Source: Cellulophaga sp. F20128 (GTDB lineage Bacteria; Bacteroidota; Bacteroidia; Flavobacteriales; Flavobacteriaceae). Taken from it: DNA of 64,000 nt. Below the pieces are notes generated by a model. That model was not told the origin of the DNA and searched no databases. It saw nothing but the letters and a program-made list of their open reading frames with translations. Shown here piece by piece: positions 15,797 to 30,123 of this stretch. How positions within the stretch are numbered: position 1 is the stretch's first letter; every line of letters starts with the position of its first letter. The DNA lies in NCBI RefSeq assembly GCF_023015805.1, contig NZ_JALKBA010000006.1, forward strand, positions 124,001 through 188,000. Reading direction: 5' to 3'. The translations under genes were made by a program, and so were the position numbers.

Positions 15797-15801
15797 AAAG
15801 A

Positions 15802-15842
15802 TAAGTAGCGCAGATTGCTTATTCAACAAACTGCGCTACTTA
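15802..15842. terminator. Probable bidirectional terminator after the sulfur transporter
   Basis: A perfect 12-bp inverted repeat (TAAGTAGCGCAG with CTGCGCTACTTA) starts six bases past the second transporter gene. Only the minus strand shows a short T tract after the hairpin, so it may also stop transcription from the phosphatase gene that ends at 16001. Confidence 0.65.
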
Positions 15843-16000
15843 CTTCCTAAATCAATTTTTTAAGAATGATATCACATTTTCAATCCACATTAAACTGAAT
15901 TACAAAGAGTTACCCCGTATCATATAACCTATTTCACTAGAGAGATCTTTAGATAAATTTATGGTAACCATCAAAATACTGCGACAAAGGTATAACCTTT

Positions 16001-18613
16001 TTAAAACGTAACTTTTATAGTCTTTTTATTTGCTGTTTTAGCTTTAACCTTAATGAATATTTTTTTCTCTTTAGTTGTAGAGTTTTCTAATACTATTATA
16101 TACTTTCCCATAGCGAAAACCTTAGGTTTAAATACATTTGATGTCATTTTTATACAATACACCAATGTTTCATTTTCATCAAATACAGAAAGTAATGGTT
16201 TTACACCGTCAACATCCTCTATTGTAGGTAACCAAGCTACAGCTTTTCTGCCGTAATTATCTTCTTGTTTAATAGTAACTGGCCAACCTGGAAGTTGAGA
16301 ACTAGCCCCTTTTGTAGGATCTGCATAGCGCGCCCAGCAAGCAGTTTCAATGGTTCTTTCTTTTTTATTAAAAGTAACGATACCATAACCAGTAGCTCTG
16401 TTATGCACTATTGCTGGTTCTAATCCTGTATGAAAAGGATTGCCCACAGCATATACAGTTAACTTATTTCCAAAACCATCAATATGATCTCCGGTATATG
16501 CCGGTTTATCATAACTGTGATTTTTACTATTTACTTCTGGCCAAAATCGCCTTGGCCAAATATTATTGAGGGCTGGTCCTGCAAAGGCATAACCACTGTC
16601 TCCGTGTTCGGTTACCCCATATTGTATAAAACTTCCCAAATGCTGATCCCCAGCAATATGAAAAGCAAAACATTTACGTATCGCTTCAACAGCTTTATCC
16701 CTTTGGTTGGCTGGCCAACCATTAGAATCCATATCTACTGTAGGGGTATCTCCCAATACATACTCCCCTTTTTCAGGAATTGGCAATGAAGGCACCACAT
16801 TATCATTTAAAGCGGTCTTAGGCAAGGTAGCCACTGTTGCAAAATTGGTTTGTGATAAGACTACTTTCATTTCTACATTATTTCCCCAATCTTGAGACCA
16901 ATCATCTATAAATTTATGTTGCCGGTCTCCTAAAAGAACAGCATCTAAATCTCTGTGCTTTTTAATATCAAAATCTTTGTTATGTATCCATCCATTCACC
17001 ACATCGGCCTCTGGTGGTAGGATATGTTTGGGAGCCGACTTAAATTTTCTATCTTCTAGAATTGCAAAACTTAATCCTCCGTAATTCCAATGGGTATAAT
17101 ACACCCCAATTCCTTGTTTTACAGGCGTTGGGTCATAAGGATCGGGCAAGTGGCTTGTTTGCGTATATTGTACCATATTCACCCATTCTGCTGGCATCTT
17201 ATACCCCCCAGAATCTTGGGCTAGCATACCATGTCCTTGGCTAATATCTGCTTTTTTTCCTCCTTCACCCCAAACATTACCGTGATATACATCGTGATCA
17301 TCAGGAATAATAGCACAAGGTTTATGCCTAAATAACTCACGATAAGACCAACCAAACATCATCCATTTTCTTAAATAACCCAAGCAAAGATCGTCTATAT
17401 CTCCTGTACGTTGTGCCCCAAAACCTCCGGTTCCCTCGTAAAATTGATCTCCTAAAAATAGTATGATATCTGGGTTAAGCTTAGATACATTATCATACAC
17501 ATCGGTATCGGGAAACCCATAATGCATGTTACAACTAAAAACGGCAGCGGATACCTCCTCCTTATCTACAGGTTCTTTGGCAATGGTACCATCATAGGTA
17601 TATTGATGAATTTCATTTTTTAAAGGCAGCTCAACTGAAACGCGGTAAGGTGTGTCTTTTGTTGCATTCCAATCTTCGATGGCAAAATTAACAGCCCTCC
17701 CAATATGTTCAATTGTTTTGGTAGCTCGGGTACCCCAAACTCCATTTTCTTTAAACTGCAGAACAACCTTATGTCCTTTAATTTGTTCTATTGGAGCCAG
17801 TTGTGCTGTTATTTTTAATTTATTTTGATGTAAAGTATATTGGGCAAAACACACAGGTCCAAAGAGTTGTTCTTCATTCACATACAGGTCATCACCAGTA
17901 ATTTTCCAATCTGAAAAACCAACAAATTCATCTGATTTTAGGCTTGACTTTGTATTTACATCCGCAAGTAATCCAAAATTCCCTGCAACGACATCTGCAT
18001 CTATTGGAATACTTTCTGATACAAAAAGTTCGTTATTTTTTTCATTGTCCGTAATCGATACTTTTAAATCATAACCGTCTCCACGCTGTTTAAAATCGAC
18101 CAGCAGTCTACTAGCAGTTGGTATTTTGGTAAAACCAGTAGCAATACGTTCTTTTCCAACCTTGAAATTACCGCTAAGTGCATACCCTATATCTAAGCCT
18201 TTTCCAAAAACAGCCGCAGATCTATAATCGTCAAACAAACCCTTTGAGCCTATTCTTAAACCAATACATCCACTTTCAGAAGATGGTAGCCTATCCAACA
18301 TAGTTATGGTAACACCAATACTAAAATCTGTGGTTTTTTTAGGTTTTTGTATGGTTAATAATTGTAAGTTTCTATTGGCACCAGCTAGCCTACAAACAGC
18401 CATCCCATTTTTAAGCTTCCAGTCCTGCATACGATTGCCCCAATATTCAGGTCCAACCCATTTCATATCTGACCAATTTTCCCAATTACTATTAAAATTG
18501 ACACCTTTTAATTTACTTCCTGAAGTCAGTATATCTAAAGGGAAAGCAGCTGCCGAAAAACTAGGTATAAATGCTCCAAGAGCAATGGTTTTAATATATT
18601 TTCTTCTGTTCAT
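16001..18613 (-). CDS. Large secreted PhoD-like metallophosphoesterase
   Basis: The 870-residue protein starts MNRRKYIKTIALGAFIPSFS, a Tat-like export signal. Residues about 40-240 form a concanavalin-like sandwich (for example SSESGCIGLRIGSKGLFDDY), then an Ig-like linker, and from about 355 the PhoD-like phosphatase domain: VFSCNMHYG, LFLGDQFYEG, IPDDHDVYHG and FHIAGDQHLGSF supply the metal-binding Asp, Tyr and His residues. PhoD enzymes are Ca/Fe-dependent phosphodiesterases. The N-terminal lectin-like part is not usual for short PhoD. It is divergent from the GH95 fucosidase gene and shares a 104-base control region with a spaced inverted repeat, so it may be co-regulated with the fucose locus. 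The substrate is unknown. Confidence 0.87.
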   Translation of the reverse strand: MNRRKYIKTIALGAFIPSFSAAAFPLDILTSGSKLKGVNFNSNWENWSDMKWVGPEYWGNRMQDWKLKNGMAVCRLAGANRNLQLLTIQKPKKTTDFSIGVTITMLDRLPSSESGCIGLRIGSKGLFDDYRSAAVFGKGLDIGYALSGNFKVGKERIATGFTKIPTASRLLVDFKQRGDGYDLKVSITDNEKNNELFVSESIPIDADVVAGNFGLLADVNTKSSLKSDEFVGFSDWKITGDDLYVNEEQLFGPVCFAQYTLHQNKLKITAQLAPIEQIKGHKVVLQFKENGVWGTRATKTIEHIGRAVNFAIEDWNATKDTPYRVSVELPLKNEIHQYTYDGTIAKEPVDKEEVSAAVFSCNMHYGFPDTDVYDNVSKLNPDIILFLGDQFYEGTGGFGAQRTGDIDDLCLGYLRKWMMFGWSYRELFRHKPCAIIPDDHDVYHGNVWGEGGKKADISQGHGMLAQDSGGYKMPAEWVNMVQYTQTSHLPDPYDPTPVKQGIGVYYTHWNYGGLSFAILEDRKFKSAPKHILPPEADVVNGWIHNKDFDIKKHRDLDAVLLGDRQHKFIDDWSQDWGNNVEMKVVLSQTNFATVATLPKTALNDNVVPSLPIPEKGEYVLGDTPTVDMDSNGWPANQRDKAVEAIRKCFAFHIAGDQHLGSFIQYGVTEHGDSGYAFAGPALNNIWPRRFWPEVNSKNHSYDKPAYTGDHIDGFGNKLTVYAVGNPFHTGLEPAIVHNRATGYGIVTFNKKERTIETACWARYADPTKGASSQLPGWPVTIKQEDNYGRKAVAWLPTIEDVDGVKPLLSVFDENETLVYCIKMTSNVFKPKVFAMGKYIIVLENSTTKEKKIFIKVKAKTANKKTIKVTF

Positions 18614-18627
18614 TACTTAGAGTTCAT

Positions 18628-18679
18628 TTTAGTGCAATTTACAAAAATTAATTGTTATTATTAGGTCAGTTGCACTAAA
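18628..18679. promoter_or_regulatory. Spaced inverted repeat in the divergent PhoD/GH95 control region
   Basis: Perfect 10-bp arms TTTAGTGCAA (18628-18637) and TTGCACTAAA (18670-18679) lie 32 bases apart, with centres 42 bp apart (about four helical turns). The left arm sits 15 bases from the phosphatase start and the right arm 38 bases from the GH95 start. The spacer holds a minus-strand AATTTTTG (18642-18649), a near match to the -7 box of the phosphatase gene. This fits an operator for a regulator that binds both sites. Confidence 0.55.
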
Positions 18680-18684
18680 TATAC

Positions 18685-18692
18685 TTATTTTG
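18685..18692 (+). promoter_or_regulatory. Candidate -7 box for the GH95 gene
   Basis: TTATTTTG matches TAnnTTTG at seven of eight positions and ends 25 bases before the GH95 ATG. It lies just downstream of the right arm of the inverted repeat, so a protein bound there would touch the polymerase. Confidence 0.4.
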
Positions 18693-18717
18693 TTGTACCG
18701 TATTAATTCGATATCCT

Positions 18718-21114
18718 ATGGCCAATAAAATCTATCTTATCAAAATATTCATATTATTTATTTTTATATGGAGTTGTACCTCATCCTCAGAAAACAAAAT
18801 CCAACCACAGCCCATGTCGCTTTGGTACACTTCACCTGCTGAAAATTGGCTAGAAGCTTTGCCTTTGGGGAACGGAAGATTAGGTGCTATGGTTAATGGT
18901 ACCATTAACAAAGAGCAACTACAGCTCAACGAAGAAAGCCTTTGGGCCGGGAAGCCTGAAGATCCCTTTCCAGAAAAAGTTGGCGTACATTATGCAAAGT
19001 TCCAGCAATTAAATCTAGAGGGCAAGTATAAGGAAGCGCTTCACTACGGTATGCAACATCTGGCCGTATCGCCAACATCAATTAGATCGTATGAGCCTTT
19101 GGGAAACCTAGACATCACTTTTAATCATAAAGCCGAGGCAGAAAACTACAAACGAGAATTAAATTTAAACAATGGTATCGTCACTATAAATTATTCAATT
19201 AATGGCAAACGTTTTATTCGGGAATCTTTTATATCCAACACCTATAATGTGATCTACCATAACTTCAAAAGTTTAGATGGCGAAGCTATTAATAGTCGTA
19301 TTTCATTTTCTAGAAAAAAAGATATCGTTCAAACTATTAGTGAAGATAACATTCTCCAAATAAACGGTCAGATATTTGACGACCCCAATGGCTATGATGA
19401 TAACCCAGGAGGCTCTGGAGAAGGCGGTCTGCACATGAAATTTGCATCGCAAATAGCGGTCTTATATAAAGATGGTAAATTAGGCAAAAAGGATACTACA
19501 CTTACCCTAGAAAATAGTACAAATTTCACCGTAGTCGTTAGTGCCACCACAGATTATAATCTAGCAGCCCTAAATTTTGACAGCACTATAGACACCCAAC
19601 TAAACACAGCTCAAATACTTGAAGCTGCCATGGAGGTTTCCTATTCAGAAGCCAAAGCCCAACATATTGCCGAACACAGTAAAATGTTCAATAGGGTACA
19701 ATTATCATTAACGGACAGCTTGCTAGATACCATACCTACTAATGTGCGTTTAAAGAATGTAAGCAATGGTACCAATGACAATCATTTAACTACTTTATTC
19801 TTTCAATACGGCAGGTATTTATTAATGGGAAGCTCTGCAAACCGAGCTTCTTTGCCGAGTAACTTACAAGGGGTATGGAATAAAGATATGTGGGCACCGT
19901 GGGAATCTGATTTCCATTTAAACATTAATTTACAAATGAATTATTGGCCAGCAGACCTCTGCAACCTATCTGAAACATTTGACCCCTTATCTAATTATAT
20001 GGTAAAATTAGCTGAGCAAGGCAAAACCACAGCAAAAAACTTTATAGGATCCCACGGGTGGATGGCACATCATGTATCCAATCCTTTTGGCCGAACAACA
20101 CCTTCTGGATCTAATAAGGACTCTCAGCTAACCAATGGCTATTCTTTTCCACTGGCAGGTACATGGATGTCCCTTTCACTTTGGAGGCATTATGAATTTA
20201 CCCAAGACCAAGACTATTTAAACACTACTGCTTATCCTGTATTGCAGGGAGCAACACAATTTGTTTTAGATTTTTTACAAGAAAATGATGCTGGGGAACT
20301 AGTCACTACCCCCTCTTACTCTCCCGAAAATGCGTATATAGACCCTGAATCAGGGGAAAAAATGAGGAATACCATAGCCGCTGCAATGGACATACAACTT
20401 ATTAAGGACTTGTTTAAAGCCTGCTTAGAATCTGAAAAAATATTAGGCAAAAATATACTTACCAATAAGGTTCGGGCAGCGCTTGCAAAGCTTCCAAAAA
20501 CCAAGATCGGGGCAAATGGAACTATTCAAGAGTGGTATTTTGATTATGATGAAGCAGAACCGGGCCATCGGCATATGTCTCATTTATACGCACTTTACCC
20601 TTCTAACCAAATTACACCGAAAACAAAAGAACTCTTTACTGCGGCAGAGAAAACCATAGAAAAACGCTTGTCTTATGGAGGCGGACAAACCGGCTGGAGC
20701 AGGGCTTGGGTAATTAATTTTTATGCACGACTGTTACAAGGAGATAAAAGTTTAGAGCATATCAACCAAATGATGGGACATCAACTTTCCCCTAATATGT
20801 TCGATTTAATTGGAAAAATATTTCAAATTGATGGCAACCTAGGTGCAACGGCTGGAATAGCCGAAATGTTACTGCAATCACATGAAGACGGCAGCATTAA
20901 ACTGTTACCCGCTTTGCCCAAAGAATGGTCTTCTGGAAAGGTAAAAGGGCTTAAAGCAAGAGGTAATTATGAGCTCGATATTGAATGGGAAAATAAAAAC
21001 ATAACCAAAGCGGTAATTCGGGCACATAGTGGTGGGAAAGTATCCGTTTTTTATAAAGATAAGGAATGGGTTGTAGATTTACAGAAAGGAGAAAAGCAGG
21101 AATTATTTGAATAA
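18718..21114 (+). CDS. GH95 alpha-L-fucosidase lipoprotein
   Basis: The 798-residue protein has a lipoprotein signal (FIWSCTSS; Cys near residue 20) and then MSLWYTSPAENWLEALPLGN with GRLGAMVNG, the standard opening of GH95. Catalytic-region motifs are present: HLNINLQMNYWPADLCN (the two Asn residues that assist catalysis), TTPSYSPENAY (the acid Glu), and QIDGNLGATAGIAEML (the Asp of the C-terminal side of the (alpha/alpha)6 barrel). GH95 enzymes invert and usually remove terminal alpha-1,2-linked L-fucose, although some members act on L-galactose. It is the first gene of the fucose module and should sit on the cell surface or in the periplasm. Confidence 0.94.
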   Translation: MANKIYLIKIFILFIFIWSCTSSSENKIQPQPMSLWYTSPAENWLEALPLGNGRLGAMVNGTINKEQLQLNEESLWAGKPEDPFPEKVGVHYAKFQQLNLEGKYKEALHYGMQHLAVSPTSIRSYEPLGNLDITFNHKAEAENYKRELNLNNGIVTINYSINGKRFIRESFISNTYNVIYHNFKSLDGEAINSRISFSRKKDIVQTISEDNILQINGQIFDDPNGYDDNPGGSGEGGLHMKFASQIAVLYKDGKLGKKDTTLTLENSTNFTVVVSATTDYNLAALNFDSTIDTQLNTAQILEAAMEVSYSEAKAQHIAEHSKMFNRVQLSLTDSLLDTIPTNVRLKNVSNGTNDNHLTTLFFQYGRYLLMGSSANRASLPSNLQGVWNKDMWAPWESDFHLNINLQMNYWPADLCNLSETFDPLSNYMVKLAEQGKTTAKNFIGSHGWMAHHVSNPFGRTTPSGSNKDSQLTNGYSFPLAGTWMSLSLWRHYEFTQDQDYLNTTAYPVLQGATQFVLDFLQENDAGELVTTPSYSPENAYIDPESGEKMRNTIAAAMDIQLIKDLFKACLESEKILGKNILTNKVRAALAKLPKTKIGANGTIQEWYFDYDEAEPGHRHMSHLYALYPSNQITPKTKELFTAAEKTIEKRLSYGGGQTGWSRAWVINFYARLLQGDKSLEHINQMMGHQLSPNMFDLIGKIFQIDGNLGATAGIAEMLLQSHEDGSIKLLPALPKEWSSGKVKGLKARGNYELDIEWENKNITKAVIRAHSGGKVSVFYKDKEWVVDLQKGEKQELFE

Positions 21115-21247
21115 AACCTTCAATTATTTTATGAGGTACTTTAAATTCATTTTTGCTAAATTTCACTATTAAATGGAATAAACTCTGATATATTGAATGG
21201 TTGCTTATTACCCTTTAATTATGCAGTAAACAACCCTAAACCTCTGA

Positions 21248-21258
21248 TGTACAGTACA
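21248..21258. promoter_or_regulatory. Short palindrome upstream of the symporter gene
   Basis: TGTACAGTACA is a perfect 5+1+5 palindrome 39 bases before the symporter ATG. It lies in a 183-base gap between the GH95 gene and the symporter, where a second promoter of the module is likely. Such short palindromes can occur by chance. Confidence 0.3.
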
Positions 21259-21297
21259 AACAATTAATCGTTTATGTTTATTAAAATTATGTGAACT

Positions 21298-22896
21298 ATG
21301 AAATCTATCAATGGTATCGATTTATTTGTGATTGTTTTATACATGGTTACCATTGTAGGTATTGGTCTTTGGTATTCTCGTAGAAAAAGAAAAACTAGTG
21401 AAGGCTATTTTTTAGCAGGTAAATCACTTGCCTGGTCTGTAATTGGAGCCTCCCTTTTTGCTTCCAATATTTCCACAATTCATCTTGTTGGTCTGGCGCA
21501 ATCTGGTTTTGAAGACGGTATTGTTTGGGGTAATTTTGAGTGGTTTTCTGCTTTTGAACTTATCATATTGGCATTTGTGTTCATTCCCTTTTATTTGCGC
21601 ACTCAAATTACAACCTTACCGCAATTTCTAGAAAAACGATATGATGTGCGCTCTAGAGTAGTCCTTGCTATTTTTAGTATCCTCGCAGCCTTATTTATGC
21701 ATATAGGAGTAAGTTTTTACGCGGGTGCTGTGGTTTTTGAATCCATTTTTGGAATCAATATCTTAACCTCAATCATTATCATTGCTGTGGCTACAGGCAT
21801 TTACACAATCATTGGAGGACTAACCTCTGTTGTTGTAACAGAAACGGTACAAACAATAATATTAATTCTAGGTTCCCTAACCATAACTATACTTGCAATT
21901 TATCAACTTCCCGATGTAGGTATACATAGTTATAGTGAACTAAAACTTGCTGTAGATCCGGACCGCTTAAAAGCAGTAAGTTTTAATTCCACCACCAAGG
22001 GATTTACCTTTTTGGATATGCTTTTTGGGCATTTAATCTTGGGTATTTGGTATTGGTGTACAGATCAAACCATTGTGCAACGAGTCTTAGGAGCTAAATC
22101 TGAAAAACAGGCTAAACTAGGAGCCTTGTTTGCCGGTTTCTTAAAAATTCTACCCGTTTTTATTATGGTTATACCAGGAATTTTGGCCTTTGCCCTTTTC
22201 CACGATCAAATTGGTAGTGACACCAAGAGCGTCTTACCTACTTTAATTATGGAATTAATGCCAATTGGACTTAAAGGTCTTATGGTTGCCGCCTTGCTGG
22301 CTGCCGTTATGAGTAGTGTTGCTGCAGCTTTAAACAGTTGTTCTACATTGATCGTTTATGATGTGTTTGATAAAATAAAACCGAATCTTTCTGATACCGC
22401 TAAAATTAATATTGGTAAAATTACAGGCGTAGTTGTTTTGGTGCTGGCGGTAATATGGTCTCCTTTTCTAGGGAGTTTAGGTGCTATTTTTGCATTGATA
22501 AATCAAATGTTTTCCATTTTTGCACCCTCTATTGTAGCGGTGTTTGTTTGGGGGATACTATCAAAAAAGGGAACGGCTAACGCAGCATTTTACACCCTTA
22601 TATTTGGAAGTCTCTTTGCTGCCATTGTTTTTTATGTTGAAAAATACATGCATATTGGGGGCATTGAAAACTACATCTCGAGTTCCAAAGGCTTAGGTAT
22701 AAATTGGTTGCGACAAACCTATATTTATTTTATAATTTCTTCTGTTATCTATGTCACCATTTCTACTTTAGATAAAACAGAGCAATTTATAGCATCTGAG
22801 TTTTACTTAAAAGTAAGCACACCTTCGAAAACCATAAACTATTTAAGCATACTGTTAGTTGTAGTAATGTTAGTATTGTACTATATATTTTATTAA
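21298..22896 (+). CDS. Sodium:solute symporter (SSS family), probable sugar importer
   Basis: The 532-residue protein has about 13-14 membrane segments. It begins MKSINGIDLFVIVLYMVTIV, then RRKRKTSEGYFLAGKSLAWSV, the typical SSS entry (YFLAGKS), and ALFASNIS-like residues (GASLFASNISTIHLVGLAQSG) that line the sodium site, followed later by AAVMSSVAAALNSCSTL. Members move sugars, sialic acid or myo-inositol with Na+. Placement between a fucosidase and a sulfatase suggests import of L-fucose or a related monosaccharide. The next gene starts after ten bases, so they are co-transcribed. Substrate choice is inferred from context only. Confidence 0.92.
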   Translation: MKSINGIDLFVIVLYMVTIVGIGLWYSRRKRKTSEGYFLAGKSLAWSVIGASLFASNISTIHLVGLAQSGFEDGIVWGNFEWFSAFELIILAFVFIPFYLRTQITTLPQFLEKRYDVRSRVVLAIFSILAALFMHIGVSFYAGAVVFESIFGINILTSIIIIAVATGIYTIIGGLTSVVVTETVQTIILILGSLTITILAIYQLPDVGIHSYSELKLAVDPDRLKAVSFNSTTKGFTFLDMLFGHLILGIWYWCTDQTIVQRVLGAKSEKQAKLGALFAGFLKILPVFIMVIPGILAFALFHDQIGSDTKSVLPTLIMELMPIGLKGLMVAALLAAVMSSVAAALNSCSTLIVYDVFDKIKPNLSDTAKINIGKITGVVVLVLAVIWSPFLGSLGAIFALINQMFSIFAPSIVAVFVWGILSKKGTANAAFYTLIFGSLFAAIVFYVEKYMHIGGIENYISSSKGLGINWLRQTYIYFIISSVIYVTISTLDKTEQFIASEFYLKVSTPSKTINYLSILLVVVMLVLYYIFY

Positions 22897-22906
22897 TAAA
22901 ATAATT

Positions 22907-24481
22907 ATGAGCATACCTCTTAAACCAATGCGGTCAGAATTATTCAGCACTACAAAAATCCTTATTTTTGCTGTTCTTGCCTCATTTATGTCTTGTAAAC
23001 AGTCTCTCCAAAATAGGGATGCACAAAAACCCAACATCATAATTATCCTTGCAGACGATTTGGGGTATGGTGATCCAGAAGTGTATAATACGGAATCTAA
23101 AATACCAACACCAAACATAAATGCATTAGCCCAAAGTGGTATTCGCTTTACCAATGCCCATGCTCCCAGTAGTGTATGTACCCCAACTAGGTATGGCATA
23201 TTAACAGGACAATATGCATGGCGAACACCTTTAAAGAGTGCAGTGCTTTGGATGTGGGACAAGCCTTTAATAGAAAAAGATAGGCTAACAATGCCTAAAA
23301 TGCTGAAAAGCAACGGATACAACACCGCAAGTATTGGCAAATGGCATTTGGGATGGAGATGGAAAGGATTGGATAATAACTATATGAACGATACCATTCC
23401 AATTGGCGATTACAGTCTAAAAGGAAGAAATGAACTTTGGAAAAAAATAGATTTCACAAAGCCAATTGGTGGTGGTCCCTTAGAAGCCGGATTTGATTAT
23501 TATTTTGGGGATGATGTTCCTAATTTTGCACCCTATGCCTATATTGAAAACAATACCTTTGTAAAAACGCCAGATACCCTTAAACTTGCCGGAATGTATG
23601 GCGGACCAGGACCTATGACCAGCGGTTGGGATTTAACCGAGGTTATGCCAACAATTACCGCTAAATCGGTTGCATATATTGAAGAACAAGCAGAAAGTGA
23701 CAAACCTTTCTTTTTATATTTTGCCCTTACAGCCCCACATACACCTATTGCGCCAACCAAAAATTTTATAGGCAAAAGCAAGGCTGGCTTGTATGGCGAT
23801 TTTGTTCATGAAGTAGACTGGACGGTGGGTGAAATAATTGCGGCATTAAAGCGTACCGGGCAATTAGACAACACCCTTGTTGTTTTTACTTCGGACAATG
23901 GTTCTCCTCAACGCGATGGTCAAAATATGGGTGGAGCAACAGGCTCAGTAAAGAAGTACGGACATGACCCTAGTAGACCCTTAAAAGGTATAAAAGCCGA
24001 TATATGGGAAGGCGGACACCGGGTTCCCTTTATTGTATCTTGGCCAAAGCAAATTAGCAATATGCAGGTTTCTGATCAACTTATTGGTTTAAACGACCTC
24101 ATGGCTACCTTTTCTGCCATTACAAATGATAGCAAAGATGCCGTCCCTTTTGAAGATAGTATGGACTTTAGCACTGTTTTACAGACCAATGAAAAAACGC
24201 CAATCCGGGAAGATTTAGTGCATCATTCCATAAAAGGAATGTTCGCTATTCGCAAGGGGTCTTGGAAATTTATTGATGGTATAGGGTCTGGCGGCTGGAG
24301 TGGGATCCCAGTAGCAAAAAAAGGCAGCAGCTTACCCAAAGGACAGTTGTACAATCTAGATACTGATTTGGGTGAAAAAAACAATTTATATGATCAATAC
24401 CCAGACATTGTAGAAACATTGCGTTTACAACTAAAACAATACAAGGAACAAGGGTATAGCAATCCTAATTTTAAAAAATAA
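22907..24481 (+). CDS. S1-family sulfatase (formylglycine-dependent), lipoprotein
   Basis: The 524-residue protein has a hydrophobic leader with FMSCKQ (lipoprotein-type Cys near residue 30). Key sulfatase features are visible: IIILADDLGYGD (metal-binding Asp pair), SSVCTPTRYGILTG with Cys91 as the residue to be oxidised to formylglycine (C-x-P-x-R), GKWHLGW, FALTAPHTP and FTSDNGSPQ (metal-binding Asp/Asn). The start at 22907 adds seven residues before another Met. The enzyme likely removes sulfate esters from a fucose-containing algal polysaccharide before or after fucosidase action. A matching anaerobic or FGE-type maturase is not in the window. It is followed after four bases by the oxidoreductase. 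Confidence 0.94.
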   Translation: MSIPLKPMRSELFSTTKILIFAVLASFMSCKQSLQNRDAQKPNIIIILADDLGYGDPEVYNTESKIPTPNINALAQSGIRFTNAHAPSSVCTPTRYGILTGQYAWRTPLKSAVLWMWDKPLIEKDRLTMPKMLKSNGYNTASIGKWHLGWRWKGLDNNYMNDTIPIGDYSLKGRNELWKKIDFTKPIGGGPLEAGFDYYFGDDVPNFAPYAYIENNTFVKTPDTLKLAGMYGGPGPMTSGWDLTEVMPTITAKSVAYIEEQAESDKPFFLYFALTAPHTPIAPTKNFIGKSKAGLYGDFVHEVDWTVGEIIAALKRTGQLDNTLVVFTSDNGSPQRDGQNMGGATGSVKKYGHDPSRPLKGIKADIWEGGHRVPFIVSWPKQISNMQVSDQLIGLNDLMATFSAITNDSKDAVPFEDSMDFSTVLQTNEKTPIREDLVHHSIKGMFAIRKGSWKFIDGIGSGGWSGIPVAKKGSSLPKGQLYNLDTDLGEKNNLYDQYPDIVETLRLQLKQYKEQGYSNPNFKK

Positions 24482-24485
24482 CCTT

Positions 24486-25562
24486 ATGTTTCAACAACAC
24501 CCCATTTTGCCAGACAATCCCTTGCCAATTGCAATCATTGGTGCTGGTGGCATTGTTAAAGATGCACATTTACCAGCTTATACCTTGGCAAAATTTCCTG
24601 TGATGGGTGTTTATGATATTGACCGCGCCAAGGCAATTGCTTTAAAAGGTAAATTTGCTTGCATACAAGAAACGTATTCCACATTAACAGAGTTAATTAA
24701 AGAGGCTACCAAGCAGAATGCGGTGTTTGACCTTGCCGTACCAGCAAATTATTATTGTTCTATTTTAAAACAACTTCCTTTTGGTGCCGCTGTACTTATT
24801 CAAAAACCAATGGGTGAAACCCTGGCGCAGGCACTAGAGATTGCTAATATATGTAGAGAAAGACAGCTGGTTTCGGCCGTAAATTTTCAATTAAAATTTG
24901 CACCTTACTGTCTTGCGGCCAAAGACATTATTTCAAAAAAACTCATAGGCGATATTTTTGATATAGAACTTAAGGTTTGTGTAAACACCCCTTGGGAGTT
25001 ATGGGACTTTCTATACAAAAAACCCCGAGTAGAAGTAGTATATCACAGTATTCATTATTTGGACTTGGTCCGTAGTTTTTTAGGGAATCCTAAAAAAGTA
25101 TACGCCAGCACCATTAAACATCCAAAAACCAAAGAATTAGCGGCAACACGAAGCAGTATCATTCTAGATTACGATGAATACACCCAAGCAAGAATTCTTA
25201 CCAATCACGGGCATCACTATGGCACAAAACACCAAGAATCCTACCTAAAGATTGAAGGCACTAAAGGTGCAATTAAAATAAAGATTGGCTTGTCATTAGA
25301 TTACCCCAATGGTAGACCCCCAAAAATGGAATATACAATTGTAGGTAATAAAAAAGGTTGGCAAGAAATTCGTTTAGAGGGAGCTTGGTTTCCACATGCA
25401 TTTATTGGAACAATGGCAAATTTACAAAACCATATCCTAGATTCAAATTTTCCTCTTCTTTGTAGTACTACAGATGCCTTAGACACGATGCAATTGGTAG
25501 AAACTGTATACGAATCTAGCGCAACTGGTGGTACATTATTTAACCCTATTAAAATTAATTAA
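24486..25562 (+). CDS. Gfo/Idh/MocA family sugar oxidoreductase (cytosolic)
   Basis: The 358-residue protein begins near LPIAIIGAGGIVKDAHLPAY, a Rossmann NAD(P)-binding turn, without an export signal. The usual EKP motif is replaced by QKP (VLIQKPMGETL), keeping the Lys; VYHSIHYLDLVRSF carries the active-site His. Family members oxidise sugars or catalyse related sugar redox steps. Between a sulfatase and a GH29 fucosidase it might be the sugar dehydrogenase of the locus, for example acting on L-fucose, but this is a guess: typical L-fucose dehydrogenases belong to the short-chain or aldo-keto families. The next gene starts 10 bases after the stop. Confidence 0.88.
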   Translation: MFQQHPILPDNPLPIAIIGAGGIVKDAHLPAYTLAKFPVMGVYDIDRAKAIALKGKFACIQETYSTLTELIKEATKQNAVFDLAVPANYYCSILKQLPFGAAVLIQKPMGETLAQALEIANICRERQLVSAVNFQLKFAPYCLAAKDIISKKLIGDIFDIELKVCVNTPWELWDFLYKKPRVEVVYHSIHYLDLVRSFLGNPKKVYASTIKHPKTKELAATRSSIILDYDEYTQARILTNHGHHYGTKHQESYLKIEGTKGAIKIKIGLSLDYPNGRPPKMEYTIVGNKKGWQEIRLEGAWFPHAFIGTMANLQNHILDSNFPLLCSTTDALDTMQLVETVYESSATGGTLFNPIKIN

Positions 25563-25572
25563 TACTTATAAA

Positions 25573-26952
25573 ATGAAAACAACATACAAGTACACTGTAG
25601 TTCTATTCAGCCTATTTACCCTATTTACGGTGAATGCACAATTGTCTGGCGGTGGTGAGGCGAATCCAAATTTAACAACGAATACCAAAGCCCTAGAATC
25701 TTTTAAAGATATGAGGTTTGGAATGTTTATTCACTGGGGACCCGTGGCTTTACGAGGAACAGAAATAAGTTGGTCTAGAGGCAAACAAGTGGCTATTGAC
25801 GATTATGACAATTTATACAAAGAGTTTAATCCCGTTCTGTTCAATGCAGCTACCTGGGTAAAAACTGCCAAAGATGCAGGTATGAAGTATATGGCGCTAA
25901 CAACCAGGCACCATGACGGCTTTTGTCTTTGGGATAGCAAACATACAGATTACGATATGGGAAACACGCCTTACGGGAAAGGCATTATAAAAGAATTGGT
26001 GGAAGAATGCAAAAAACAAGGAATCGTTTTTGGTGCCTATTATACCGTTTGTGACTGGAAACATGAAGATTACCCAGTTGTTTACCCATACAAAGAAAAT
26101 GTACGTATTGATAGAGAAATAAAAGATCCCAAGGAAAAAGCAGGAATGCAACGCTATATCACCTTTATGAAAAACCAACTTAAAGAAATCATAGACAATT
26201 ATGATCCTGCTTTTATCTGGTTTGATGGGGAATGGGAATGGGCATGGACACACGAAATGGGTATGGATATGTATAAATACTTGAGGGAATTAAAAGATGA
26301 TATCCTAATAAACAACCGAGTTGACAAAGGTCGTGAAGGTATGGCAGGGATAACCAAAAGCATTAAATATGCAGGAGATTATGCCACTCCTGAACAACAA
26401 ATTGGAAAATTTGACAATAAGAATGCATGGGAATCTTGCATGACCATTGCCACCCAATGGGCATGGAAGGCCAATGATAAACTTAAATCAAAAAAAGAAT
26501 GTATTCAGACGTTAGTACGTACCATTGGTGGTGACGGAAACCTGCTATTAAACGTTGGCCCTATGGCCGATGGAAGGATTGAACAACGGCAAATAGACCG
26601 ATTGAAAGAAGTTGGAGATTGGGTTAAAATAAACCAAGACGCCATATATGGGACACGAGGAGGCCCCTATTTACCTACCGATTATATGGTGAGTACAAGA
26701 AAGGAAAACAAGATTTATGTGTTTTTATTACAGCATCCTGAAAAAGAAATAGAAGTGACACTTCCAAAAAAAACTAGAATCACAAAAGCCTATTTTTTAG
26801 ATGGTAATACACCCGTAACATTTAAAAATGGAAAAAATAGTGCAGCCATCACCCTACCGGATGTTTTACCTGATGATAGTGTATCAGTCATCACATTAGA
26901 GTTAAACACCTCCGCTATGGAACAAGAAATTTCTGCCGTACAGAATAATTAA
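25573..26952 (+). CDS. GH29 alpha-L-fucosidase
   Basis: I choose the ATG at 25573 (MKTTYKYTVVLFSL), which gives 459 residues with a clean signal peptide ending FTVNAQ; a start at 25528 would overlap the oxidoreductase gene. GH29 motifs include RFGMFIHWGPVALRGTE, LTTRHHDGFCLWDS, and FIWFDGEWEWAW, whose Asp is the likely nucleophile, and NLLLNVGPMADGRI. GH29 enzymes retain configuration and hydrolyse alpha-L-fucosides. A second, mechanistically different fucosidase in the same locus (GH95 is inverting) suggests different linkages. It is 10 bases from the preceding stop and 27 from the next gene. Confidence 0.94.
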   Translation: MKTTYKYTVVLFSLFTLFTVNAQLSGGGEANPNLTTNTKALESFKDMRFGMFIHWGPVALRGTEISWSRGKQVAIDDYDNLYKEFNPVLFNAATWVKTAKDAGMKYMALTTRHHDGFCLWDSKHTDYDMGNTPYGKGIIKELVEECKKQGIVFGAYYTVCDWKHEDYPVVYPYKENVRIDREIKDPKEKAGMQRYITFMKNQLKEIIDNYDPAFIWFDGEWEWAWTHEMGMDMYKYLRELKDDILINNRVDKGREGMAGITKSIKYAGDYATPEQQIGKFDNKNAWESCMTIATQWAWKANDKLKSKKECIQTLVRTIGGDGNLLLNVGPMADGRIEQRQIDRLKEVGDWVKINQDAIYGTRGGPYLPTDYMVSTRKENKIYVFLLQHPEKEIEVTLPKKTRITKAYFLDGNTPVTFKNGKNSAAITLPDVLPDDSVSVITLELNTSAMEQEISAVQNN

Positions 26953-26979
26953 ACATCACTTATAAGCGTATAAAAACCC

Positions 26980-28185
26980 ATGAAACACTTGTATTGTATA
27001 CTTTTCTTAATTGTTGGAAGTGCTTGTAAAACACCCTTTGCCATACAACCACAACCCTTAAATGCAATTGTAAAAGAGAAGGGCGAAAGTAAAATTCTCC
27101 AAGGGCCTTCAACCCTTAATATTGACGGTTATTTTGTTTGGGGAGGAAGTGTTATTCAGGGCGATGACGGCAAATATCACATGTTCTTTTCACTATGGGA
27201 AAGTGGTTCCACTAATGGCAGCTTTGCTCAAAGCTGGGTTTTAGAATCTAAAATAGGCTATGCAGTTTCTGATTTTCCCGATCGTGATTTTAAGTTTCAA
27301 AAAATAATTTTAAAGGGTAGCAGGTATAGTGGAGATACGACCGCATGGGATGCGCAAATGGTACACAATCCGCATATAAAGAAATTTAAAGACACCTACT
27401 ACCTCTACTATATTGGTGGCAAGGACTACGGAGAACAGCCCAATGGTTCTACCGGTGAAAATTTAGACAAAAGGTCAAGAGTACAGCAATCACTTTGTAT
27501 TGGAGCCATTGCCTTTACCAATTTTGAGGACCTCATAAATGGAAATTTTCAAAGACCAAAAGAACCGCTATTAACAGCAAGAACACGAGTTAAACCGAAC
27601 AATATTCTCCATGGTTCTCCCAAGGGAACTATTGCGAAACCCGATAATATTATCGTAGTAAATCCGGCGGTAGTTTTCAATCCAAAAACCAAAGATTACA
27701 TGCTTTTTTTTAAAGGCAATTTATATGAACCTGGTTGGAAAGGAGCGCATGGTGTTGCCATAGGAAAAACACCCTTGGGGCCCTTTAAGGCTAAAGAAGA
27801 GTTTGTTTTTGACATACGAATGCCAGACGGTTCTATAGCAAGCACAGAAGACCCCTATGTTTGGTACGCCAAAAACCAGAAAAAATTCTTTGCGGTTGTA
27901 AAAGATTTTTCAGGGCGACTAACAGGAGAAAAGAAAACTTTAGCATTTCTCTTATCTCAAGACGGACTCCAATGGGAGGTAGCACAAACACCCTTATTTA
28001 TAAATAGAACGCTCCATTTAACGAACGGCACTAAAGTAACCGTAGATCGCCTTGAAAGGCCACAATTATTAATCGACAAAAAAGGAGTCCCCCTAGTTAT
28101 GTATGCCGCATCTGCTTTGGAAAATGTAAATCCTAAAACGGATGGTAGTAGTTTTAATGTTCAAATATCAATTTCCAACAAATAG
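26980..28185 (+). CDS. GH43-like five-bladed propeller glycoside hydrolase, lipoprotein
   Basis: The 401-residue protein has a lipoprotein signal (IVGSACKT) and then a propeller pattern: DGYFVWGGSVIQGDDGKYHMF, DAQMVHNPHIKKFKDTYYLYY, VVNPAVVFNPKTKDYMLFF and SIASTEDPYVWYAK. The repeat of a short Asp/Asn-rich turn followed by W/Y-rich strand resembles clan GH-F (GH43/GH117-like) hydrolases. I cannot assign the family: a clear N-terminal general-base Asp is not obvious, whereas D/E residues in DAQM, STEDPY and a late LERPQLL are candidates. It lies between a fucosidase and fuconate dehydratase, so a role on a fucose-rich glycan is likely. Eight bases separate it from the next gene. Confidence 0.8.
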   Translation: MKHLYCILFLIVGSACKTPFAIQPQPLNAIVKEKGESKILQGPSTLNIDGYFVWGGSVIQGDDGKYHMFFSLWESGSTNGSFAQSWVLESKIGYAVSDFPDRDFKFQKIILKGSRYSGDTTAWDAQMVHNPHIKKFKDTYYLYYIGGKDYGEQPNGSTGENLDKRSRVQQSLCIGAIAFTNFEDLINGNFQRPKEPLLTARTRVKPNNILHGSPKGTIAKPDNIIVVNPAVVFNPKTKDYMLFFKGNLYEPGWKGAHGVAIGKTPLGPFKAKEEFVFDIRMPDGSIASTEDPYVWYAKNQKKFFAVVKDFSGRLTGEKKTLAFLLSQDGLQWEVAQTPLFINRTLHLTNGTKVTVDRLERPQLLIDKKGVPLVMYAASALENVNPKTDGSSFNVQISISNK

Positions 28186-28193
28186 TATAACCA

Positions 28194-29432
28194 ATGAATA
28201 CACCCATTATTATAAAAAAAGCAACTTCCCGAGATACTAGGTTTAAACTAAAGGACGGCGCTGGATCTGATGCTGTGCACACAACTCCAATATACGCCTA
28301 CGCTGTTTGTAGTTTACAAACAGACCGAAAAATAGAAGGCGTAGGCTTAGCATTTACTTTAGGGACTGGCAACGGAATTGTTTGTCAGGCTATAGATTAT
28401 TTGGTGAAACATATAGAAGGAAGAGAAATTAATGAATTAATGGCCGATTTTGGAACTACCTATAAAATTATGGCCGACGATCCCAATTTTAGATGGTTGG
28501 GTCCGCATAAGGGAGTTGTTCATTTAGCACTAGCAGCCATCGTCAACGCTTGTTATGATTTATGGGCAAAATCTAAAGGAGTCCCCTTATGGAAACTATT
28601 GATAGACCTATCGCCCGAAGCACTGGTCAATACCTTGGATTTTTCATATTATGAAGATGTTCTCACAAAAGAAGATGCCATTGCACTATTAAAATCTCAG
28701 CAAAACGGAAGAACAGCGCGAGAGAAAATTATAACAGCAGGATATCCTGGGTATGATACCTCTATTGGTTGGTTTAATTATAGCGATGAAAAAGTAGCTC
28801 AAAATATTTTGAAAGCGATGGATAATGGTTTTACTGCTATGAAACTGAAGGTTGGTTCTAAAAATCCAGAGCGAGACATTCGGAGGGCAGAAATGGTGCG
28901 TAAAATTGCGGGCGATAAGGCCACCATTATGTTTGATGCCAATCAACAATGGAATCTTAATGAAGCCATTTCCATTTGCAAAAAGCTACAAGACTTAAAT
29001 CCATTTTGGGTTGAAGAACCAACACATCCAGATGATGTACAAGCTCATGTAACCTTAGCCAATACAGTTTCTGTAAAATTAGCTTTAGGAGAACATGTCC
29101 CCAATAAAATACTCTTTAAAAATTTCATTCAATCCGGTTGTATGTCCTTCAATCAAGTTGATGCCGTTAGAGTTGGAGGCGTTTCTGAGTTTATTCTTAT
29201 AAGTCTTTTGTCTAGAAAACACAATATCCCTGTTGTACCGCATGTTGGCGATATGGGACAAATTCATCAACATTTAGTACTATTTAATCACATTTCTATT
29301 GGTCATCCAGCCCTACTTTTGGAGCATATTCCGCATCTTAAGGACCATTTTAAATTCCCTGTGCAGATCATAAATGGAAAATACCAAACTCCGCTAGAAC
29401 CAGGAATGAGTAGTGATTTATTAAAGCTATAA
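28194..29432 (+). CDS. L-fuconate dehydratase-like enolase-superfamily enzyme
   Basis: The 412-residue protein has the fuconate-dehydratase opening (SRDTRFKLKDGAGSDAVHTT) and the enolase-superfamily core: MKLKVG (KxK base), MFDANQQW (first metal Asp), FWVEEPTHPDD (Glu), LGEHVPN (Glu) and PVVPHVGDMGQIH (His). These match the L-fuconate dehydratase group, which removes water from L-fuconate to give 2-keto-3-deoxy-L-fuconate in the non-phosphorylated fucose pathway. It is somewhat shorter than the usual 430-440 residues. The placement in a fucosidase operon strengthens the assignment. The aldonolactonase and the later dehydrogenase and hydrolase are not adjacent. Confidence 0.88.
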   Translation: MNTPIIIKKATSRDTRFKLKDGAGSDAVHTTPIYAYAVCSLQTDRKIEGVGLAFTLGTGNGIVCQAIDYLVKHIEGREINELMADFGTTYKIMADDPNFRWLGPHKGVVHLALAAIVNACYDLWAKSKGVPLWKLLIDLSPEALVNTLDFSYYEDVLTKEDAIALLKSQQNGRTAREKIITAGYPGYDTSIGWFNYSDEKVAQNILKAMDNGFTAMKLKVGSKNPERDIRRAEMVRKIAGDKATIMFDANQQWNLNEAISICKKLQDLNPFWVEEPTHPDDVQAHVTLANTVSVKLALGEHVPNKILFKNFIQSGCMSFNQVDAVRVGGVSEFILISLLSRKHNIPVVPHVGDMGQIHQHLVLFNHISIGHPALLLEHIPHLKDHFKFPVQIINGKYQTPLEPGMSSDLLKL

Positions 29433-29481
29433 AATTCAGTATATTTATATCACGTAGCAAACCATGCAATCCAAAGCATAA

Positions 29482-30123
29482 ATGAAGGAAACAAAAAAAG
29501 TAAAAACGAAAGACAAAATAGTATTATGTGCCATTCAACTATTCAATGAAAACGGTGTACAAAGCATTACCAGTAGACATATTGCAGCAGAATTAGGCAT
29601 TAGTCATGGAAATTTAGATTATCATTATAAAACAAAGGAAGACCTTATTTTGGCAATCTATAAAAGAATGCGAAAAGAAATGTCTGAATCCTATTTATTA
29701 CGTGATGAATACGCCTCTCCAATGGAGCATTTTCACAGACTACTTATTCACACCGAAGAGTTCCAAAATAAATATCGCTTTTTCAATTTAGATGTTTTGG
29801 AAATATCACGTTCGTATCCTAAGATCAGTAAACTATTAAAAAAAACATTAGAAATTAGAAAAACCCAAATGCAATCTTTCTTTAATGAATTCATTACAGA
29901 AGGGTATATGCAACTTCATAAAGGTGATAAATTGACGCGCTTGCAGCACACCATTCGCATAGTAATTACCTTTTGGTTATCGAAACAAGAAGTCCTTACC
30001 AGTTCTAAATTTGATGAAAAAGGAGAAATGGTACTTCATATATGGGATGTTATGCTACCGTATTTAACGGAGAAAGGGCATAAAGAACAACAAAGACTAA
30101 TTGGGGAATTTAGTGACCTATAA
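29482..30123 (+). CDS. TetR/AcrR family transcriptional regulator
   Basis: The 213-residue protein has the N-terminal TetR helix-turn-helix (KTKDKIVLCAIQLFNENGVQ, SRHIAAELGISHGNLDYHYK, about residues 5-55) and an all-helical ligand domain. It begins 49 bases after the fuconate dehydratase stop and ends at a strong terminator, so it looks like the last gene of the fucose module. It may respond to a fucose-derived metabolite and control the module, perhaps through the inverted repeat at 18628-18679; this is inference. Confidence 0.92.
   Translation: MKETKKVKTKDKIVLCAIQLFNENGVQSITSRHIAAELGISHGNLDYHYKTKEDLILAIYKRMRKEMSESYLLRDEYASPMEHFHRLLIHTEEFQNKYRFFNLDVLEISRSYPKISKLLKKTLEIRKTQMQSFFNEFITEGYMQLHKGDKLTRLQHTIRIVITFWLSKQEVLTSSKFDEKGEMVLHIWDVMLPYLTEKGHKEQQRLIGEFSDL

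Follow-up and report, generated by a model that had tools for sequence, protein, structure and literature searches.

The question raised by this locus is whether a 10-bp inverted repeat between two divergent genes of Cellulophaga sp. F20128 marks a shared regulator. The intergenic gap (18614–18717; 104 bp, 25% GC) belongs to the 64-kb stretch of DNA analysed here (hereafter, the window). It separates the divergent ORFs of an 870-aa PhoD-like (PF09423) protein (16001–18613, minus strand, ATG at 18613) and a GH95 family (alpha-L-fucosidase family) protein (18718–21114, plus strand, ATG at 18718), both assigned with Pfam. The repeat is present as described in the first-pass annotation: arm 1, TTTAGTGCAA (18628–18637, plus strand, centre 18632.5), and arm 2, TTGCACTAAA (18670–18679, arm on the minus strand, centre 18674.5), are exact reverse complements with centres 42 bp apart, and near-consensus -7 boxes are also found, TTATTTTG (18685–18692, plus strand) and AATTTTTG (18649–18642, minus strand). 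By itself, the inverted repeat is mildly surprising and constitutes weak evidence, because exact inverted repeats of at least 10 bp appear in 1.3% of shuffled gaps (P ~0.013; 5000 dinucleotide shuffles of the 104-bp gap), spaced exact arms of at least 10 bp are found in 9 of 42 divergent gaps, mostly longer ones, in 464 kb sampled from this genome, and the arm 10-mer has 23 copies in the 4.17-Mb genome. The spaced pair occurs once in this genome and, among 400 genomes of the family, only at the window locus and in one terminator-like hairpin with A/T runs. The arm 10-mer was rejected as the signature of a genome-wide regulon, since most of its copies are intragenic and the intergenic ones (by eye from translations, near msrB-like, ketoacyl-ACP-synthase-like and Hsp90-like genes, and a hairpin) have no sugar theme. 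Nor are the arms found upstream of ~100 GH95 relatives (80 genome loci) or at 18 PhoD places. The first-pass annotation had made retention of the arms in related genomes a test of its own proposal, and this test fails because the conserved element is the operator described below rather than the arm pair. Phylogenetic footprinting is impossible, since no orthologous divergent gap was found in any genome reached. The closest GH95 relatives come from Cyclobacterium (66–69%), a full-length PhoD relative is present in none of 17 congeners, and a close GH95 is also missing from the congeners.

Both genes are part of an inserted block, or island, located between YeeE and the DPP4 terminator (15797–30123). 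The order of its genes is PhoD, GH95, SSF symporter, sulfatase, GFO/IDH oxidoreductase, GH29 alpha-L-fucosidase, a 401-aa protein, L-fuconate dehydratase (enolase superfamily) and a TetR-family repressor, with the genes from SSF to the dehydratase lying on the plus strand at 21298–29432 (Pfam and PDB sequence matches). The L-fuconate dehydratase (match to PDB 2hne/1yey, E 5e-97) points to the oxidative (non-phosphorylating) L-fucose pathway; Pfam hits in the island include neither fucose dehydrogenase nor lactonase, which may lie elsewhere. Five congeners have DPP4 immediately after the YeeE pair, <200 bp away, versus 14.3 kb in the window, and the hairpin terminator downstream of TetR (from 30124) matches the congener hairpin preceding DPP4. 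The block was thus either gained in this genome or lost in the others, and its sparse distribution favours gain. No integrase was seen in the 14.3 kb. The 401-aa protein of the operon (26980–28185) has no Pfam hit; it weakly resembles beta-1,2-mannobiose phosphorylase (NCBIfam, E 2e-4) and has distant relatives downstream of GH95 at two other loci (L066 and L082).

The TetR-family protein closing the island (29482–30123, plus strand) contains the N-terminal HTH domain of the family (PF00440, 4.9e-9) and PF13972 (3.2e-25). Its relatives are rare, being found in 10 of 301 family genomes, that is, in 9 of the 300 others at 35–60% identity, the closest in genome G275 (60%). In six genomes (G275, G268, G288, G133, G181 and G068) the relatives lie near SSF, GFO, fuconate dehydratase, sulfatase or GH29 genes, and the fucose-linked loci share SSF at 74–79%, GFO at 59–63% and L-fuconate dehydratase at 69–78%. 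All six fucose-linked loci carry an operator upstream of SSF, TetR, sulfatase or susC. A palindrome search that made no use of the window arms recovered the form TTAGGGC-N4-GCCCTAA in five exact copies in four genomes (G288, G133 twice, G181 and G068), whereas scrambled halves yield a mean of 0.025 exact matches in the same sequence, and no site with two or fewer mismatches was found in ~1.8 Mb of other loci. G275 and G268 carry a variant form, TTAGGTCAAATGCACTAA 58 bp before SSF in the former and ATAGTGCATTTGTACTAA, with three mismatches, 56 bp before SSF in the latter. Genomes G288, G133 and G181 have the operator at the promoter of TetR itself, a common but not obligatory trait. Unlike these relatives, the window contains no operator-like site before SSF or TetR, apart from the two sites in the gap (O1 and O2).

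We regard the TetR at 29482–30123, which the first-pass annotation had proposed for gel-shift, as the best candidate regulator, because its relatives adjoin the same fucose genes, at loci whose promoters bear the same operator. The operator variants also appear to follow the recognition region of the protein. TetRs with GGTC/GCAC-type sites (window and G275), together with their closest sisters, mostly have the HTH residues RHIA...GNLDY, versus R[D/F/N]...GNLEY in those with GGGC/GCCC sites; the second TetR of G268, where the site is most diverged, deviates to RNIA...GNLTY. With four or five proteins per group, this apparent covariation of operator code and HTH residues is suggestive only. The TTAGGGC/GCCCTAA and TTAGGTC/GCACTAA codes seem to be paired with two HTH types within a single TetR subfamily (L216, L220–L223 and L266). 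Close TetR relatives from genus g22 (57–59%; L217 and L218) have a different conserved gene context, with neither fucose genes nor a clear operator.

The operator of the relatives has a counterpart in the gap. O2, TTAGGTCAGTTGCACTAA (18661–18678, plus strand), has no mismatches to TTAGGTCANNTGCACTAA, a pattern matched exactly by both the window and G275, and is its sole exact match in the 4.17-Mb genome. The 18-mer is identical to the one before SSF in G275 except for two central bases, and differs from TTAGGGC-N4-GCCCTAA at 2 of 14 positions. It is also the top PWM match of the window, with no equal in a 400-kb sample of the same genome. As in the relatives, this near-palindrome sits at the promoter of a prospective target, with similar position and spacing. 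O2 is therefore probably a TetR-type operator shared with the fucose loci of the relatives, recognisable by its sequence. In Flavobacterium, promoters have a -7 element, TAnnTTTG, 4–5 nt before the start and a weak -33 element (PMC6847099). The predicted GH95 -7 box begins 6 bp after O2 and matches five of the six fixed positions (scored), as does the weak predicted PhoD -7 box (by eye). The gap between operator and -7 box is likewise 6 bp at the TetR promoter of G181 (TATTTTTG) and before SSF in G068 (TACATTTA), 7 bp before SSF in G275 (TATATTTG) and 16 bp in G133. A sigma-70 promoter scan returned fewer matches than shuffles and was discarded as addressing the wrong promoter type. The predicted starts are ~18697 for GH95 and ~18637 for PhoD, so that O2, positioned over the GH95 core promoter, would cover approximately -37 to -20 of GH95 and, if PhoD uses AATTTTTG, approximately -24 to -41 of PhoD, where the upstream element of the PhoD promoter is predicted. 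Since O2 overlaps both predicted promoters, one bound dimer could block both.

The relation of the arms to this operator changes the geometry initially envisaged. The arms had been taken for two complete, equivalent sites; instead, arm 2 makes up the right half of the 18-bp O2, and arm 1 belongs to a site, O1 (TTTTGTAAATTGCACTAA; 18629–18646, minus strand), whose other half is degenerate. Consequently, the 42-bp distance does not describe the operators, the centres of which are 32 bp apart, and nothing supports the suggested DNA looping. A distance of 32 bp, about three turns, would permit binding on the same face, and simple occlusion would suffice. O1 has mismatches at 3 of 16 positions and, besides O2, is the only match with three or fewer in the 64-kb window. 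A match of this grade is expected 0.84 times per window, hence ~0.001–0.002 times in the 104-bp gap; simulation with random 104-mers of 25% GC gives P ~0.0009, and the PWM expectation is 0.005–0.014 per 104 bp. The search pattern was derived partly from the window, yet G275 agrees with it at all non-N positions, which makes the test of O1 against the G275 form independent of the window. The significance still needs discounting because the locus was picked for its repeat. O1 is probably a second operator, a half-degenerate copy of the first, which would cover the end of the PhoD -7 box and the start, much as the G275 susC operator lies at its own -7 region.

The PhoD-like protein has full-length relatives at 54–62% in other genera. 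No Pfam family covers its first ~350 residues, and the protein has no PDB sequence match. A sulfatase is encoded within the fetched 18–19 kb at 12 of 18 places with full-length PhoD versus 3 of 20 random stretches of the window genome, a rough comparison given that places and control stretches come from different genomes. In G275, the PhoD gene stands behind a distant GH95 gene in the same orientation, with sulfatase, susD and susC upstream; this susC carries an operator with two mismatches. The link between PhoD and fucose genes proposed in the first-pass annotation is thus seen independently in a second genome. Five genomes have both TetR and a full-length PhoD, above expectation (~1e-5, assuming 14 PhoD genomes), with shared lifestyle as a confounder. 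Literature searched on PhoD and fucoidan contained nothing relevant linking the two. The association of PhoD with fucose genes is likely real, and PhoD may be co-regulated in the window.

The island can be read directly, as can the sequence of the operator, the way it recurs where TetR and fucose genes are linked, and its placement with respect to the -7 boxes. In our judgement, the gap likely serves as control region for a fucose-catabolism island, in which TetR on O2, and probably on O1, blocks both promoters until a metabolite releases it. In this model, the island's own TetR would bind the near-palindrome O2 and probably the weaker copy O1 over the PhoD -7 box and start, and the bound repressor would exclude RNA polymerase from the GH95 and PhoD promoters. 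A metabolite of the fucose pathway (fucose, fuconate or similar) would then release the repressor, turning on GH95, probably also the downstream operon, and PhoD. We infer binding of O2 by the window TetR, repression rather than activation, the ligand and the control of PhoD; promoter occlusion relieved by a fucose-derived ligand appears to be the most likely mechanism. Almost as probable as not, in our view, is the wider proposition that an undescribed TetR-type regulator governs oxidative fucose/sulfated-fucan catabolism, that its two operator codes are clade-specific and mirrored by changes in its recognition region, and that in the window it represses both a PhoD-type esterase and a GH95 fucosidase at one overlapping divergent promoter.

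The strongest competitor, to which we give rather less than even weight, retains O2 as the real operator but regards arm 1 as a chance copy of a half-site, leaving PhoD regulated, if at all, only through its overlap with O2. The missing second half of O1, the PWM expectation given above at a locus chosen for its repeat, and the PhoD relatives, none of which has an operator with three or fewer mismatches just upstream, so that O1 is without counterpart, all fit this reading. Against it, O1 is the sole other match of its grade in 64 kb and falls over the predicted PhoD promoter, and the operator upstream of susC in G275 also overlaps a -7 region. That the whole repeat arose by chance in an AT-rich gap and binds no regulator is improbable: the shuffle frequency, the abundance of spaced repeats in other gaps of the genome and the absence of the arms from relatives are all compatible with it, whereas arm 2 coincides with an operator recovered independently from other genera, and the window site, its two central bases aside, has zero mismatches to the form of the closest relative.

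It is equally unlikely that a different regulator, either global or belonging to the fucose island, occupies the site in place of the TetR at 29482. TetR linkage and the operator could each merely follow the fucose genes; however, the TetR promoter itself carries the operator in G288, G133 and G181, and operator variants and TetR HTH residues are split alike. In addition, 18-bp palindromes suit TetR dimers. Finally, the inverted repeat might act as an RNA hairpin, either an attenuator or a terminator, and the plus strand does fold better than shuffles (z -2.8). With the predicted starts, however, neither leader would include both arms, and the gap has no T-run and no Rfam match; such a role is therefore very improbable.

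The preferred model of TetR-mediated occlusion invokes a kind of operator system that is already known. TetR-family repressors such as TetR, QacR and AcrR use palindromic operators of 15–20 bp over core promoters. The window system resembles them in its TetR_N plus C-terminal domain protein, in a near-palindromic operator overlapping a promoter and in linked targets, as well as, among the relatives of the window TetR, in an operator at the regulator's own promoter. It differs in that its targets belong to an oxidative fucose/sulfated-glycan module rather than to efflux, and in that the TetR gene ends the operon without a site of its own. In Bacteroides thetaiotaomicron, the GntR-family FucR (BT1272) exerts local control over the fucose operon fucRIAKUP (PMC3878776). 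The window shares with it the phylum Bacteroidota and the putative local regulation of a fucose operon, with a regulator of another protein family and a pathway proceeding via fuconate dehydratase. FucR sites have also been predicted at oxidative L-fucose loci of Halomonas and others (PMC5507952); these share with the window the L-fuconate dehydratase pathway and a putative local regulator, but belong to a different phylum and have a different gene set, and the text of that paper mentions no TetR. In the literature searched, no relevant paper assigns a TetR regulator to fucoidan or fucose in this group, the only regulator named being the GntR protein of gut Bacteroides. The present analysis provides candidates for both operator and regulator of the fucose-pathway islands of the family. 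By placing a large, uncharacterised PhoD-like protein at fucose and sulfatase-rich loci, it also offers a clue to the substrate of that protein. The repeat itself, chance-looking in isolation, became readable only through the relatives of the regulator. Outside the window, the genome has about eleven additional GH95-type matches (contigs C48, C37, C22 and C92), several of them in tandem on C48.
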